From assembly GCF_021922985.1 (NCBI RefSeq), contig NZ_CP040788.1:3038001-3102000 (forward strand): a DNA stretch of 64,000 bases. The letters run 5' to 3'. The notes beneath the pieces were generated by a model that was given only the letters and a program-made list of their open reading frames with translations, was not told where the DNA came from and made no database searches. Source of the stretch: Clavibacter michiganensis subsp. tessellarius. GTDB taxonomy: Bacteria > Actinomycetota > Actinomycetes > Actinomycetales > Microbacteriaceae. Shown in pieces: positions 34,634-45,702 of the stretch. The number at the start of each line of letters is the position of its first letter. The first letter of the stretch is position 1. The position numbers and the translations under genes are program-made.

Positions 34634-34657
34634 TGTGGGCGGTGCCGCTTCATGGCG
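34634..34657 (+). repeat. terminal inverted repeat, left
   Basis: Compared with the inverted right end (45679-45702), positions 1-4 (TGTG), 11-17 (GCCGCTT) and 20-24 (TGGCG) are identical without gaps, 16 of 24 in all. Confidence 0.85.
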
Positions 34658-34681
34658 CGGTTCTGTTGCCGTTCGGTGTCG

Positions 34682-35488
34682 TCATCCGGTGACGAGGATG
34701 CTGGCGGCGGCTTCGACGACGTCGTCGGTGATGGTCTCGAGCTGGTTGATCTTGAGGACGCGCTGGATCTGCGGGAAGAGCCGTTCGAGGAGTCGGAAGT
34801 TGCCGCGGGTGATGCGTTGGATCGCGGCGATGGCTTGCGCGTCGGTGAAGTCGTCAGGGTTCAGGGTGTGGCCGAGGCGCTTCCAGTGGCGGTCGAGAAC
34901 GAACAGGAGCTCGTCTTGGCCGAGGGCGCGGTAGCGGTGGGCGAAGCCGAGGCGACTGTAGAGCTGCGGGTAGTGACGGAAGCGCTGGTCGATTCCGGGC
35001 ATGCCGATGAGGATGATCGCGAGGTGCTCACGGTCGTGCCGATCGCGGAGGAGCTCGAGGGCGGTGGGCGTGAGCCGTTCCGCTTCGTCGATGATCAGCA
35101 GCTCGACCCACCGGCGCGCATCGCCGGCGGTGCCGGTGATCTTCCCGATCGTGCGCTGGTGATCCTCGATCCTGATGCCGAGGTCGACCGTCCAGCGGTC
35201 CAGCTCCCGCATGAGGTCCTTCGGCCGGGGCAGGACTTCGGGCGTGTAGAACACCGCCCGGGAGCGGTTCGCGGCCGCATCGAGCTTCGGGTCGTCCGCG
35301 CCGCGCCGACCCCACTCCTGGGCGTACGGCTCGAGCGCATCCCAGTGCGCGTACCGGCGGGCGGAGTTGGTCTTCCCGACGCCGGCATCGCCGTGGCAGA
35401 TCCCGATGGTCTGCTCCTTCCGGACGGCGTTCGCGAACTCGACGAACCGCCGGTGCTCTTTCGTGGTGATGAACGTGTCGGGCATCAT
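34682..35488 (-). CDS. transposition AAA ATPase (TniB/TnsC-like)
   Basis: The 268-residue ATPase has Walker A GDAGVGKT (33-40), Walker B LLIIDEAE (130-137) and a sensor region after LIGMPGIDQRF. In Tn402, Tn552 and Tn7-like systems such ATPases choose targets and activate the DDE transposase. The ATG at 35488 overlaps the transposase stop by 4 bp. It lies 25 bp inside the left inverted repeat, the usual end position. Confidence 0.9.
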   Translation of the reverse strand: MMPDTFITTKEHRRFVEFANAVRKEQTIGICHGDAGVGKTNSARRYAHWDALEPYAQEWGRRGADDPKLDAAANRSRAVFYTPEVLPRPKDLMRELDRWTVDLGIRIEDHQRTIGKITGTAGDARRWVELLIIDEAERLTPTALELLRDRHDREHLAIILIGMPGIDQRFRHYPQLYSRLGFAHRYRALGQDELLFVLDRHWKRLGHTLNPDDFTDAQAIAAIQRITRGNFRLLERLFPQIQRVLKINQLETITDDVVEAAASILVTG

Positions 35489-36870
35489 CCGTCCTCTTCA
35501 TAGGTGCGCAGGCGCGGCCGCCGAGGCGGCGGCGGTGTCGCGGGGAGCTCGGCACGGCTGGCTGTAGTTGGGATCCGGTCGTTGAGGTCCCGGCGCAGCT
35601 GCCGGCGGCGGGCGCGGCGTGCGGTCTCGACGTCGCGGAGGCTCATCCGCAGGTTCGGGTGGGCCTCGTCGACGGCGACGCAGATGAAGGTGTCGTGGTC
35701 GTAGACGCGGATCTCGGAGATGTCACGCGGGTCGTACCGGATCGTCACGGTCCGGCCGACGAACGGAGCAAGGGTCGGGGCGAGGTACCGCTGGCCCTGG
35801 AAGTGGATCCCGTCGCGCTGCACGGTGCGGCTCTTCGGCACAGTCAGCAAGAGCCCGTCGAGCTCCACGAGGCTCTCCGGCATCCGAGGCAGCCAGCCGT
35901 CACCGGCCCAGGTTGTTCGCGGTGTGGTCCCGAGCTCCTTGTGCGGGCGGTCGTTGTAGGTGGCGATGAACGACCCGACGGCCGTGTCGAGGCCGGCTAG
36001 GTCGAGCACCGGGTCCGGGCGTCGGTTCCCGGGGCTGAGGTGTCCGGGAAGGAGCGGGAGCAGTTCGGTGGTGATGGTGCCGAAGAACCGCTCGATCTTC
36101 CCGCGGCCCTGGGGGCGGCCGACAGCGGAGTGGATGATCCGGATCCGCAGCTCCGCGGCCGTGTGCTCGAGGTGTCGGCTGGTGAAGTCGGTGCCGTGGT
36201 CGACGTGGAGGATGTCGGGGATCCCGCACATCGCCCAGCCGGGATCCGGCTTCCTCCAGATCGCTTGCCGGAGTGCGAGTGCGGTGTTCATCGCCGATGG
36301 GGCGCCGGTGAAGACGGTGTATCCGCAGATGGCACGGGAGTAGTCGTCCATGATCACGGTCAGCCAGGGGCGGTCGGGCTTCCCGCCGGCGCCGACGATG
36401 AGGACGTCGAGCTCGGTGTGGTCGGCCTGCCACGTCTGGTTGGGGCGCTCCGCCCGGCGCCGATACACGAGCTCGTGCCGATCCCGATACGACGCCGGCC
36501 CCTCCAGGGCCAGCGTCACCAGCGCGGGGTCGAGCGCCTGCACGATCTCCCGCACCGTGGAGTAGCTCGGGACCGGGTCCCCGCGCTGCTGCGCGTCCGT
36601 GGCGGCGAGGCGGTGCAGGGTCGCGATGCTCGGACGGGGCTTGGTCAGCGCGAGCCGTTCGATGAACGTGACCGTCGCGGCCGCTGTCCGCCGCCGGCCC
36701 GCGTCGATCCGGGACCTGGAGTCGAGGGCAGTGATGCCGCCGGCGCAGTAGAGGTGGTGCCAGCGCTGCAGGGTCCGCGCGCTGATCCCGGTGGTCCGGG
36801 CGAGAGCTGCGAGCGGGATCTGGTCTTCGACATGCAGTCGAAGAACGCGCCACCGCTCGAGCCCGTCCAC
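35485..36870 (-). CDS. DDE (rve-fold) transposase, TniA/Tn552 type
   Basis: The 461-residue protein has an N-terminal helix-turn-helix (about 15-45, LARTTGISARTLQRWHHLY), the catalytic triad D150 (TWQADHTELD), D224 (LHVDHGTDF) and E260 (QGRGKIERFF) with 35 residues between the last two, and a C-terminal Mu-type beta-barrel plus an Arg-rich tail. It would cut and join the element ends. I chose the GTG at 36870, 8 bp after the recombinase stop; upstream codons of the same frame lie in the recombinase gene. Confidence 0.92.
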   Translation of the reverse strand: MDGLERWRVLRLHVEDQIPLAALARTTGISARTLQRWHHLYCAGGITALDSRSRIDAGRRRTAAATVTFIERLALTKPRPSIATLHRLAATDAQQRGDPVPSYSTVREIVQALDPALVTLALEGPASYRDRHELVYRRRAERPNQTWQADHTELDVLIVGAGGKPDRPWLTVIMDDYSRAICGYTVFTGAPSAMNTALALRQAIWRKPDPGWAMCGIPDILHVDHGTDFTSRHLEHTAAELRIRIIHSAVGRPQGRGKIERFFGTITTELLPLLPGHLSPGNRRPDPVLDLAGLDTAVGSFIATYNDRPHKELGTTPRTTWAGDGWLPRMPESLVELDGLLLTVPKSRTVQRDGIHFQGQRYLAPTLAPFVGRTVTIRYDPRDISEIRVYDHDTFICVAVDEAHPNLRMSLRDVETARRARRRQLRRDLNDRIPTTASRAELPATPPPPRRPRLRTYEEDG

Positions 36871-36878
36871 CCCGGCAC

Positions 36879-37472
36879 CTACATCGCGGCGCTCTCGCGC
36901 GCAGCGTTCGACTGGTGCCGGTACAACGTCGCGCGGCTCCACCCGACGAGACGGGCCGCGTCCTCCGCGGTCCGGCCACGGGCTCGCGCATCGGTCGCGA
37001 TCTGGAGCTTGTCGGCGATGACGGCCGGATCCGACAAGGGGCGGCCGAAGCGGGTCCCGTTGTCGCGCGCGACGGCGATGCCGGCGTTGACGCGCTCGAC
37101 GATGAGCTCGCGCTCGTACTCGGCCAGGCTCGCGAGCATGCCCAGCATCAGCCGGCCCGAGGTCGTCGCCGGATCGATGCCGTCGGAGATGGAGCGGATC
37201 TGCACGCCCCGTTCGCGCAGCATCTTCACGGTGCTGAGGACGTCGAGCATCGAGCGGCCTAGACGGTCGATGCGCCAGACGACGATGGTGTCGCCGTCCT
37301 CGGCGTACTCGAGCAGCTTCTTCATCCCCGGCCGATCGATCGCGGCCCGGCTGCCGGAGGTGACGTCGGCGAACACGTCCCGCTTCTGCACGCCGTCCTT
37401 CACCAGCGCGTCGAGCTGGAGCTGCGCATCCTGACTCGTCGTGCTCACCCGCGTGTATCCCAGAAGCCTCAC
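36879..37472 (-). CDS. serine recombinase / resolvase (TniR/Pin-like)
   Basis: The 197-residue protein starts at a GTG with RLLGYTRVSTTSQD, containing the catalytic Ser of RVST, then WRIDRLGRS, the long E-helix (RLMLGMLASLAEYERELI), and a C-terminal helix-turn-helix (TAEDAARLVGWSRATLYRHQ). It would resolve cointegrates formed by replicative transposition. First gene of the transposition operon; inverted repeats just upstream may be its res site. Confidence 0.92.
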   Translation of the reverse strand: MRLLGYTRVSTTSQDAQLQLDALVKDGVQKRDVFADVTSGSRAAIDRPGMKKLLEYAEDGDTIVVWRIDRLGRSMLDVLSTVKMLRERGVQIRSISDGIDPATTSGRLMLGMLASLAEYERELIVERVNAGIAVARDNGTRFGRPLSDPAVIADKLQIATDARARGRTAEDAARLVGWSRATLYRHQSNAARESAAM

Positions 37473-37650
37473 CCGAGCAGTCTGCCTCAGAAATACCCAC
37501 GGTGGGGCTCTTCGAGACACTTTGCGGTGAGACGACTTGACGAGACGTCCGGCCCCCAGTGAACAGGCTCAGTCGACGCGGCTCGGAGGCGCAGATCATG
37601 GTGTCTCGAAAAGCTATTGCTTTTCGAGATGGATCGTGAAGAGCGCATGC
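37473..37650. promoter_or_regulatory. recombinase upstream region with res-like inverted repeats
   Basis: TTCGAGACAC at 37511-37520 recurs inverted as GTGTCTCGAA at 37601-37610. The second copy is the start of an 11-bp perfect inverted repeat TCTCGAAAAGC / GCTTTTCGAGA (37604-37629). Repeats of this kind before a serine recombinase gene fit a resolution site and promoter control. This intergenic stretch contains no gene. Confidence 0.5.
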
Positions 37651-45122: not shown

Positions 45123-45184
45123 GCTGGCTGCTTTCTGCGTCGATGCGCAGGTGATCGCCTCAGGACCGATGGCACCGCAAGCGA

Positions 45185-45200
45185 CCACCCGTACGGGTGG
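45185..45200. promoter_or_regulatory. 16-bp perfect palindrome upstream of glnA
   Basis: CCACCCGTACGGGTGG is a perfect palindrome 63 bp upstream of the glnA start, suited to be an operator or a leader hairpin. The rest of the 230-bp region between glnA and the TrkH remnant shows no gene. Confidence 0.4.
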
Positions 45201-45354
45201 GATAGGAACCATCAGCAAGCGGTGCGGTTCGGACGGGTCGTCCTGGCGGGATCCATCGCCGCCGCGAGTGTAGCCCGCGCCGCACATCGAATCGTGTGCC
45301 ACCCCTCGGCCCGTGGGACAGCGAAGGGTCCGGGAACGCCAGCGTCGGTGCGGG

Positions 45355-45504
45355 CTACCCGATGACGGGGCGATCCGCCGGCCACTCGTAGAGGAGGGTC
45401 CGCCGTCGGATGGCCAGGGCCGACGCTAGCCCGATCGGACCGACGCGGCCGGCGAACATGAGAGCGGCGAGGACGTACTTCCCGACCGTTGCTGCCCCAG
45501 AGGC
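45355..45504 (-). pseudogene. C-terminal remnant of a TrkH/KtrB potassium transporter
   Basis: Forty-nine codons before a TAG encode GKYVLAALMFAGRVGPIGLA...RRTLLYEWPADRPVIG, the typical end of TrkH/KtrB proteins (last membrane helix plus the RPxIG tail). A stop at 45505 ends the frame upstream and no other part of the gene is present before the inverted repeat. It shows that a larger segment was captured or deleted at this end of the transposon. Confidence 0.75.
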
Positions 45505-45678
45505 TCATCCACCCGTTGGTGCCGGACGTGCGCTTGGGCAGCAGCATTCGGTTAGGCACCGCAGCGGCACGCGCGCGCGCTCACGCGGCAGCTTGACGGC
45601 GGGGAAGTAGGCCGCGGGCTAAGGGTGTCGCTGGCACTCCACCGCAGCCCGGGCCGCCATCGATTGATCAAGATCAGA

Positions 45679-45702
45679 CGCCACTAAGCGGCGAAAGTCA
45701 CA
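45679..45702 (-). repeat. terminal inverted repeat, right
   Basis: Read inward on the minus strand it begins TGTGACTTTC-GCCGCTT and matches the left end at 16 of 24 positions. The bases between the TrkH remnant and this repeat (45505-45678) hold no gene. Confidence 0.85.

Follow-up and report, generated by a model that had tools for sequence, protein, structure and literature searches.

Genes and features of the locus

In this study we describe a transposon in the chromosome of Clavibacter michiganensis subsp. tessellarius that is predicted to carry fluoride tolerance. The window analysed was a 64,000-bp stretch of contig NZ_CP040788.1 (positions 3,038,001 to 3,102,000; genome G000 among those compared), and the element occupies positions 34634-45702 of it, about 11 kb. 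It splits a host gene for a DUF4012 protein (33014..34627, minus strand, with the remaining part starting at 45703), is bordered by two copies of a 9-bp target duplication, CACCTGGTC (34625..34633 and 45703..45711), and ends in terminal inverted repeats at 34634..34657 (plus strand) and 45679..45702 (minus strand). We give a probability of roughly 0.8 to the reading that this is a Tn552-like transposon with a cargo of channels and enzymes, predicted to be induced by fluoride through two RNA leaders. Fluoride resistance of the element, and fluoride binding by the divergent one of these two RNAs, are predictions from sequence.

Gene identities were taken from Pfam and NCBIfam domain matches. The cargo consists of eight genes: two crcB genes, five genes for metabolic enzymes and one stress-protein gene. 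Seven of them form an operon on the plus strand, in the order usp (universal stress protein, 37784..38290), pgm (2,3-bisphosphoglycerate-dependent phosphoglycerate mutase, 38290..39030), crcB1 and crcB2 (fluoride channel subunits, 39027..39530 and 39527..39898), ppa (family I inorganic pyrophosphatase, 39925..40410), eno (enolase, 40472..41806) and ilvD (dihydroxy-acid dehydratase, 41883..43580), where the starts of eno and ilvD are those of the annotation. The crcB genes are paired and match PF02537, the CrcB/Fluc channel family, above its cut-off. The eighth gene, glnA (43698..45122, minus strand), encodes a type I glutamine synthetase of 474 amino acids with a GTG start. Second copies of eno, ilvD and glnA are present in the host chromosome. 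An initial annotation, made from the letters of the window, had described a seven-gene operon; all seven of its gene calls hold, but glnA and the riboswitch in front of it had been overlooked.

The transposition genes lie on the minus strand to the left of the cargo and comprise a transposition ATPase of 268 amino acids (AAA_22, 34682..35488), a DDE transposase of 461 amino acids (rve and Mu-transpos_C, a Mu-type C-terminal domain; 35485..36870), which the ATPase gene overlaps by 4 bases, and a serine resolvase of 197 amino acids (36879..37472, with a longer in-frame reading frame extending to 37520). All three reading frames are open, and the domain matches bear out the recombinase-transposase-ATPase module recognised at the outset. 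Between module and cargo, at their junction as judged against pCM1- and pCM2-type plasmids, lies a 26-bp palindrome (37604..37629) which is a putative crossover site of the resolvase.

Copies, ends and empty site

The entire element recurs in the same genome on a plasmid contig (C3), where it spans 11,068 bp and differs from the window copy by indels only, with 0 mismatches. The C3 copy stops at the same bases and has its own, different 9-bp duplication, GCGCACGTC, and we therefore take the tips of the window element to be its true ends. C3 is 45.8 kb long, its sequence continues across the cut point, and its similarity to the window is confined to the element. The indels produce frameshifts which, occurring without any substitution, are probably assembly errors. 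A third copy, on contig C2, was rejected; this 29.5-kb contig is an inverted duplicate (fold-back) of C3 sequence, so that the element on it is probably an assembly artefact and the number of copies probably two.

When the flanks were joined without the element they matched as a single stretch in 16 of the 17 congeners, that is, as an empty site, and the other congener (G016) gave short matches only. The element is thus not a fixture of this locus in all relatives. The initial annotation had called a complete transposon with 9-bp duplications, and its coordinates proved exact. Its 24-bp inverted ends are real but imperfect: 16 of 24 positions are identical, in register (TGTG-N6-GCCGCTT-NN-TGGCG), and a local alignment retained 14 columns, 12 of them identical. 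A search of 18 genomes of the genus for the tip pattern, of the kind that the annotation had proposed, found exact matches in G000 (6 places) and G005 (1 place) only. With one mismatch allowed, the true pattern and a reversed control each occurred in 5 of 18 genomes (13 and 5 places, respectively), and the pattern was rejected as proof of an end family. From the two copies and the empty site, mobility of the element is close to certain.

A divergent leader before the operon

The operon is preceded by a leader (37687..37789, plus strand) that we read as a divergent fluoride-riboswitch-like RNA. When the stretch before usp was aligned across the sister elements described below, about 100 bases proved strongly conserved. 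The predicted fold consists of P1, an AACC linker, P2 and a pseudoknot (GGGGCU/AGUCCC), and it shares these parts and the linchpin A and U with the canonical aptamer, RF01734. Among 13 distinct leaders 96.8% of cells were paired and 8 cells were altered on both sides; compared with 500 shuffles, 0 were as good on three of five measures, and the remaining two measures were weaker (12 and 240 of 500). The linchpin A and U and most of the 3' pseudoknot strand are invariant in the alignment. P2 is unpaired in one leader, L134, which we read as a one-column misalignment, and the linker of the window's own leader is AACU.

A covariance model built from the divergent leaders alone (R3) was used to place them among known riboswitches. 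In 60 Rfam-derived loci, its eight best matches, besides L134, which was included in the model and so is left out of the count, all fell on Rfam fluoride riboswitches from other actinobacteria (E 4.5e-7-0.014); four of the eight were also displayed as alignments. R3 also detected, at 61.3 bits, a leader from outside its training set, namely the one before the chromosomal crcB pair of the host. Family-wide, R3 had matches in 22 of 199 genomes. At 24 of the 26 leader loci examined, the gene immediately following on the same strand was usp, crcB, pgm or eno. The remaining two loci belong to a cluster of genome G804 in which pgm, eno and usp-like genes are likewise found. Two places that are duplicates in the window genome were excluded from the 26, some of which are copies of leaders in the model. 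With R1, the model of canonical Micrococcales riboswitches, the divergent leaders give weak matches that lie amid chance ones of similar score (23.4 bits for the leader of the host crcB pair, 13-18 for several others and up to 16.6 for unrelated sites), and the link between canonical and divergent leaders therefore rests on R3.

Two further observations concern this type of leader. The host crcB-pair leader (L011 7661-7763; G000 C1 2603660-2603762) is itself of the divergent type, and the G804 cluster (C1 ~232792-237559; L271, L281, L283 and L285) contains four divergent leaders within 5 kb, alongside the genes named above.

The minimum-energy fold of the window leader hides the usp ribosome site in a helix, UCCCUAUCUC/GAGAUAGGGA, which the leader overlaps (z -2.95, with 2 of 200 shuffles as stable). 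The 5' strand of this helix overlaps the pseudoknot strand, and P1 is present in the same fold, which was computed without pseudoknots. A survey notes that fluoride riboswitches of Actinomycetota are hardly ever transcriptional (PMC13273304), which suits a translational switch.

Several points weigh against fluoride as the ligand, or against the switch as drawn. Rfam reported no fluoride match to the operon leader when 301 bases were scanned with E values up to 10 admitted, and a canonical riboswitch before the operon, sought by lax Rfam scans, was not found. The leaders have GUGG (GAGG in the window) for the canonical AUGG and CAACA for UGAUG. They also have an invariant C at the position of U41 of the Bacillus cereus aptamer, beside the linchpin pair, and a U41A mutant of that aptamer is described as unresponsive (PMC11077080). 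P2 is absent from the minimum-energy fold of the window leader. Covariation in the ribosome-site helix is weak: on each of the five measures 28-123 of 500 shuffles do at least as well as the real alignment, and the covariation score rises when the helix is moved by 3 columns.

Some of these points lend themselves to the alternative that the leader is a riboswitch for a new ligand, or a plain RNA thermometer or attenuator, and shares nothing but the fold. The changes are located in the junction around the binding site, and in other riboswitch classes junction changes often mark a changed ligand. It is also in favour of this alternative that the leader goes unreported by Rfam, that U41 is replaced by C, and that most divergent leaders score at chance level with the canonical Micrococcales model. 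We nevertheless consider it unlikely, if the best placed of the alternatives, since the fluoride gene set adjoins 24 of 26 leader loci, the linchpin and most of the 3' pseudoknot strand are invariant, and R3 bridges to Rfam fluoride riboswitches. According to one report, fluoride contacts magnesium ions held on backbone phosphates and no base directly (PMC8752731), so that base changes need not alter the ligand. Fluoride control of the seven-gene operon, as modelled here, is likely.

A canonical riboswitch before glnA

The glnA gene has a leader of its own, a canonical fluoride riboswitch aptamer (45196..45269, minus strand), which scores 35.7 bits against RF01734 (gathering cut-off 34) and 73.9 bits with R1, a model that was built including this aptamer. 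A riboswitch of this type occurs in 3 of the 18 genus genomes, and the same three (G000, G005 and G008) have an extra glnA. In G008 the cluster is chromosomal and reduced: riboswitch and glnA face eno, ppa and pgm, and crcB and ilvD are absent. Between the G008 and window leaders, paired changes preserve an extra stem.

Recruitment of glnA to such a riboswitch appears to be rare. We examined RF01734 loci for neighbours within 1.5 kb, taking 30 of 43 listed places in Micrococcales and 30 from a longer phylum-wide list. In Micrococcales, 25 of the 30 loci, the window's included, had crcB or usp and 4 had no match to the cargo; glnA was found at the window's locus only. Seventeen of the phylum-wide loci had crcB. 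Neither glnA nor ilvD was found within 1.5 kb of the 59 other fluoride riboswitches (29 in Micrococcales and 30 phylum-wide). This speaks for novelty and also for caution. Two further points weigh against the main reading. Beyond the aptamer, the glnA leader does not fold markedly more stably than its shuffles (z -1.32, 18 of 200 as stable), and our searches found no paper that connects either glutamine synthetase or dihydroxy-acid dehydratase with resistance to fluoride. What GlnA and IlvD contribute is for this reason deduced from position and regulation. On balance, fluoride control of glnA is very likely and roles of GlnA and IlvD in fluoride tolerance are plausible from their genomic setting, with glutamine synthetase a likely candidate for an overlooked fluoride target.

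The mobile glnA has a mosaic relationship to the host gene. Compared with the chromosomal glnA of its own genome, the cargo gene is 99.3%, 99.2% and 99.4% identical from nt 150 onward in G000, G005 and G008, and 75%, 76% and 79% identical in the first 150 nt; the stretch of more than 99% identity makes up about 90% of the cargo gene in each genome. The G000 and G005 cargo genes are identical to each other in the first 150 nt and 98.0% identical in the remainder. Between the window and a C. michiganensis plasmid (L019), glnA has 7% synonymous differences, and the other compared cargo genes have 0-0.9%. The simplest account of this pattern is repeated host-to-cargo gene conversion ending at about the same place in three genomes. 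In a whole-gene tree the G008 cargo gene groups with the G008 host gene, and the G000 and G005 cargo genes fall together, beside the G000 host gene. Because the tree places the G005 cargo gene with that of G000, the case for conversion in G005 rests on the comparison of stretches. Conversion would keep the mobile GlnA host-like, and resistance through an altered enzyme is therefore unlikely and an extra dose of enzyme under fluoride control likely.

Ages and selection of the cargo enzymes

The cargo enzymes differ in their distance from the host copies, with identities of 48% for enolase, 79% for IlvD and 96% for GlnA, and appear to have been gathered at different times in a layered acquisition. 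The cargo enolase and glutamine synthetase align over their full length with solved enolases and glutamine synthetases. Proportions of nonsynonymous and synonymous differences (pN and pS) were 0.136 and 0.449 for enolase and 0.011 and 0.364 for GlnA, both between window and G008, and 0.112 and 0.562 for IlvD between the window and an Agreia plasmid; that plasmid has crcB, crcB and ppa, then ilvD. Changes are thus mainly synonymous, which places the cargo enzymes under purifying selection. The initial annotation had spoken of target replacement. This fits enolase, where the divergent cargo enzyme may be a true substitute for that of the host, but not glnA, the body of which has been rewritten by the host gene.

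An enolase of the cargo type (at least 53% identity, a cut-off that we set) was found in 10 of 395 other Micrococcales genomes. In 5 of the 10, RF01734 lies on the same contig, 0.05-4.1 kb away, and 3 more have a divergent leader (the weakest, in G410, at E 3.3e-4). The stretches scanned in the last two, G335 and G176, contained neither RF01734 nor a divergent leader.

The enzymes also bear on the alternative that the element mobilises efflux only, the crcB pair being what is selected and the metabolic genes being passengers or serving general stress or growth. It is true that crcB is the usual neighbour of these riboswitches, as the counts above illustrate, and that the literature offers no direct tie of IlvD or GlnA to fluoride. 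However, glnA has its own fluoride riboswitch in a transcript without crcB, the G008 cluster retains riboswitch-glnA, eno, ppa and pgm without crcB, in 8 of 10 other genomes cargo-type enolase has a fluoride riboswitch or the related leader in its vicinity, and the enzymes are under purifying selection. In Enterobacter cloacae FRM, moreover, deletion of eno-uspA-ppaC is described as costing more resistance than deletion of crcB (PMC5533749). We regard an efflux-only element as improbable and favour a cargo in which channels and enzymes both contribute.

Other arrangements of these genes were seen in passing. In G137 (L183 6819-8678) the gene for an IlvD of another subfamily neighbours eno-pgm, with a fluoride riboswitch about 2.4 kb away, possibly an independent association. 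A plasmid of Arthrobacter sp. U41 (L222 5980-7683) has an ilvD with about 76% DNA identity to that of the cargo, adjoined by a recombinase gene, with no annotated crcB near. Two loci (L181 9135-12427 and L184 9320-12480) have a fluoride riboswitch, two genes for MutS/KamC-like ATPases and then a cargo-type enolase; in L181, usp stands between the ATPase pair and the enolase gene.

Transposition genes and related elements

A search for the transposase in other genomes, which had likewise been proposed at the outset, found the same module beside other genes in Clavibacter plasmids, at 91-94% identity. The pCM1-type plasmids align with the window up to the end of the 26-bp palindrome, and a pCM2-type plasmid does so from just before the palindrome onward. 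Past the palindrome, the pCM1-type sequence is the reverse complement of the sequence that precedes it in the pCM2-type plasmid. The simplest account of these alignments is that module and cargo were joined by a crossover at the palindrome, and we infer that the resolvase was its agent. The cargo of the pCM2-type plasmid, from C. michiganensis, is 99.4% identical to that of the window, but its left end is inverted and its ATPase gene cut. On these grounds we rejected the idea of a functional pCM2 transposon that had simply been rotated, and regard this plasmid as a relative rather than an intact copy. The palindrome (window 37604-37629, L189 14971-15002 and L019 6001-6032) is a point of exchange among Clavibacter plasmids, at which the transposition module, the fluoride cargo and a block of genes for a metal-sensitive regulator, a rhodanese and an FAD-oxidoreductase are exchanged; from the alignments this looks like resolvase-mediated reassortment.

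The module resembles that of Tn552 of Staphylococcus, which has the transposase p480, the ATPase p271 and the resolvase bin (PMC3276174). The likeness lies in three genes of the same size and kind: a DDE transposase with a Mu-type C-terminal domain (461 against about 480 amino acids), an adjoining small ATPase (268 against about 271) and a serine resolvase, for which the palindrome is a candidate res site only. The elements differ in their target duplications, 9 bp at both insertions here against 6 bp in Tn552, and in their ends, about 120 bp in Tn552 against 24 imperfect bp here and 50 aligned columns in the sister element; repeats of 10 bp have been reported at Tn552 as well (PMC3276174). 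Tn552 inserts at resolvase genes or res; the C3 copy lies about 90 bp from a resident resolvase gene, and the chromosomal copy is not near one. The cargo of Tn552 is a beta-lactamase, in contrast to the fluoride tolerance predicted here. As a further likeness, no TniQ domain was found among the genes scanned. Because the lengths of duplication and ends differ, we term the element Tn552-like and stop short of placing it in the Tn552 family.

A search for relatives of CrcB1 yielded 27 named loci. The order usp-pgm-crcB-crcB-ppa-eno was present in 21 of them, and 19 additionally had lysR and a gene for a channel of the TDT/SLAC1 family; no ilvD or glnA match was found in the 27 loci, with flanks of up to 10 kb per side. 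They include a sister transposon (usp-pgm-crcB-crcB-ppa-eno / lysR-SLAC1 / res-tnpA-ATPase), which occurs 12 times at full length (about 10.05 kb), always between identical end points and with 97.4-99.96% identity to a reference copy. The hosts are Curtobacterium, Plantibacter (in which the contig consists of the element alone), Frondihabitans, Microbacterium, Amnibacterium and another Microbacteriaceae isolate, so that at least five genera are represented. Both ends are present in 16 copies; duplications of 6-8 bp flank 9 of these, and the other 7 lack them. In 5 of 18 copies a resident serine resolvase gene is no more than 100 bp away, and in one it is about 430 bp away, a count made without a control. 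A plasmid of Micrococcus luteus carries an 82% relative of the sister element.

The sister and window elements have the first six cargo genes in the same order, the same type of leader and related transposition genes, with full-length transposases 63% identical. The sister element differs in having lysR and the SLAC1-family gene and in lacking ilvD and glnA. As the shared cargo genes are only about 75-78% identical, the window element is not a recent derivative of the known sister copies. In the sister elements the pair of lysR and a SLAC1-family anion channel gene (L019 14104-16266; L194-L217) stands beside the fluoride operon, and it is absent from the window element; this channel is a possible second exit route for anions. 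On a plasmid of Microbacterium sp. SGAir0570 (L219 8088-13290) a relative of the module with 78% DNA identity adjoins usp-pgm-crcB-crcB, a further combination of such a module with fluoride cargo.

A dead or decaying island, inserted long ago and copied to the plasmid by homologous recombination, would fit the ends that agree at only 16 of 24 positions, a right end unlike that of the sister elements and the rearranged pCM2-type relatives with their cut ATPase and inverted left end, but is very improbable given two copies that lie in unrelated surroundings, each with a 9-bp duplication of its own, and have 0 mismatches between them over 11 kb, three open transposition genes and an empty site in 16 of 17 congeners.

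Discussion

The two copies, the empty site, the internal RF01734 aptamer and the riboswitch-like leader support the proposal, already made in the initial annotation, that this is a mobile fluoride-resistance unit. Its closest known parallel is the fluoride operon on genomic island GI3 of E. cloacae FRM, described as comprising ppaC, uspA, eno, gpmA, crcB and orf5249, where knockouts showed joint resistance and for which the authors had proposed horizontal transfer (PMC5533749). The two share channel, enolase, phosphoglycerate mutase, pyrophosphatase and Usp; FRM also has a fluoride riboswitch and a mobile context with flanking transposases. The window operon thus holds the FRM-type gene set, behind a leader that is only related to the fluoride riboswitch. 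The pyrophosphatase of FRM is the Mn-dependent PpaC and that of the window is of family I. The words 'glutamine' and 'ilvD' do not occur in the FRM paper, in contrast to the glnA and ilvD of the window element. Its accessible text describes a single riboswitch, before ppaC, and no inverted ends or target duplications, whereas the window element has both of the latter and two leaders of two types. A review regards all enzymes that use metal-ATP complexes as potential fluoride targets and notes that some bacteria respond to fluoride with more enolase (PMC11139923). By analogy, glutamine synthetase would fit this rule; our searches found no literature stating it for that enzyme. As far as literature searches show, the kind of system is already known, and what is new is a transposon with defined ends, a glnA driven by a riboswitch, ilvD as an addition to the cargo, the divergent type of leader and the gene conversion.

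In the mechanism that we propose, fluoride, as a magnesium cluster, would stabilise the pseudoknot GGGGCU/AGUCCC of the operon leader. The pseudoknot would tie up the strand otherwise paired with the usp ribosome site (UCCCUAUCUC with GAGAUAGGGA), and translation would start. The channels would lower internal fluoride, surplus phosphoglycerate mutase and enolase would maintain lower glycolysis, and pyrophosphatase would maintain the removal of pyrophosphate. Dihydroxy-acid dehydratase, and glutamine synthetase under its own riboswitch, would sustain amino-acid and nitrogen assimilation.

A more far-reaching version, to which we would give about even odds, is that the transposon moves a complete fluoride regulon. 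The operon would be governed by an undescribed aptamer subtype acting as a translational switch, with a G-C in place of the A-U junction contact, which we take to be A6/U38 in the canonical aptamer, and glnA by a captured canonical aptamer. GlnA and IlvD would be fluoride-limited enzymes not so far recognised as such, and each host would rewrite the mobile glnA after its chromosomal copy, with the riboswitch and first 150 nt staying apart from those of the host.

The element is ordinary in kind and unusual in content. It recasts fluoride tolerance, otherwise a matter of chromosomal genes at scattered places, as a defined mobile unit with measured ends, sisters in several genera and a predicted on-switch, and such tolerance would be transferable. 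The divergent leader would broaden the known class of fluoride riboswitches and suggests that functional relatives escape the covariance model now in use. The gene set may be usable in building a fluoride-tolerant chassis for the breakdown of organofluorine compounds. The question of which enzymes limit growth in fluoride also becomes testable: membership in the cargo, together with a riboswitch of its own in the case of glnA, can be seen as an evolutionary vote for glutamine synthetase and dihydroxy-acid dehydratase as candidates.

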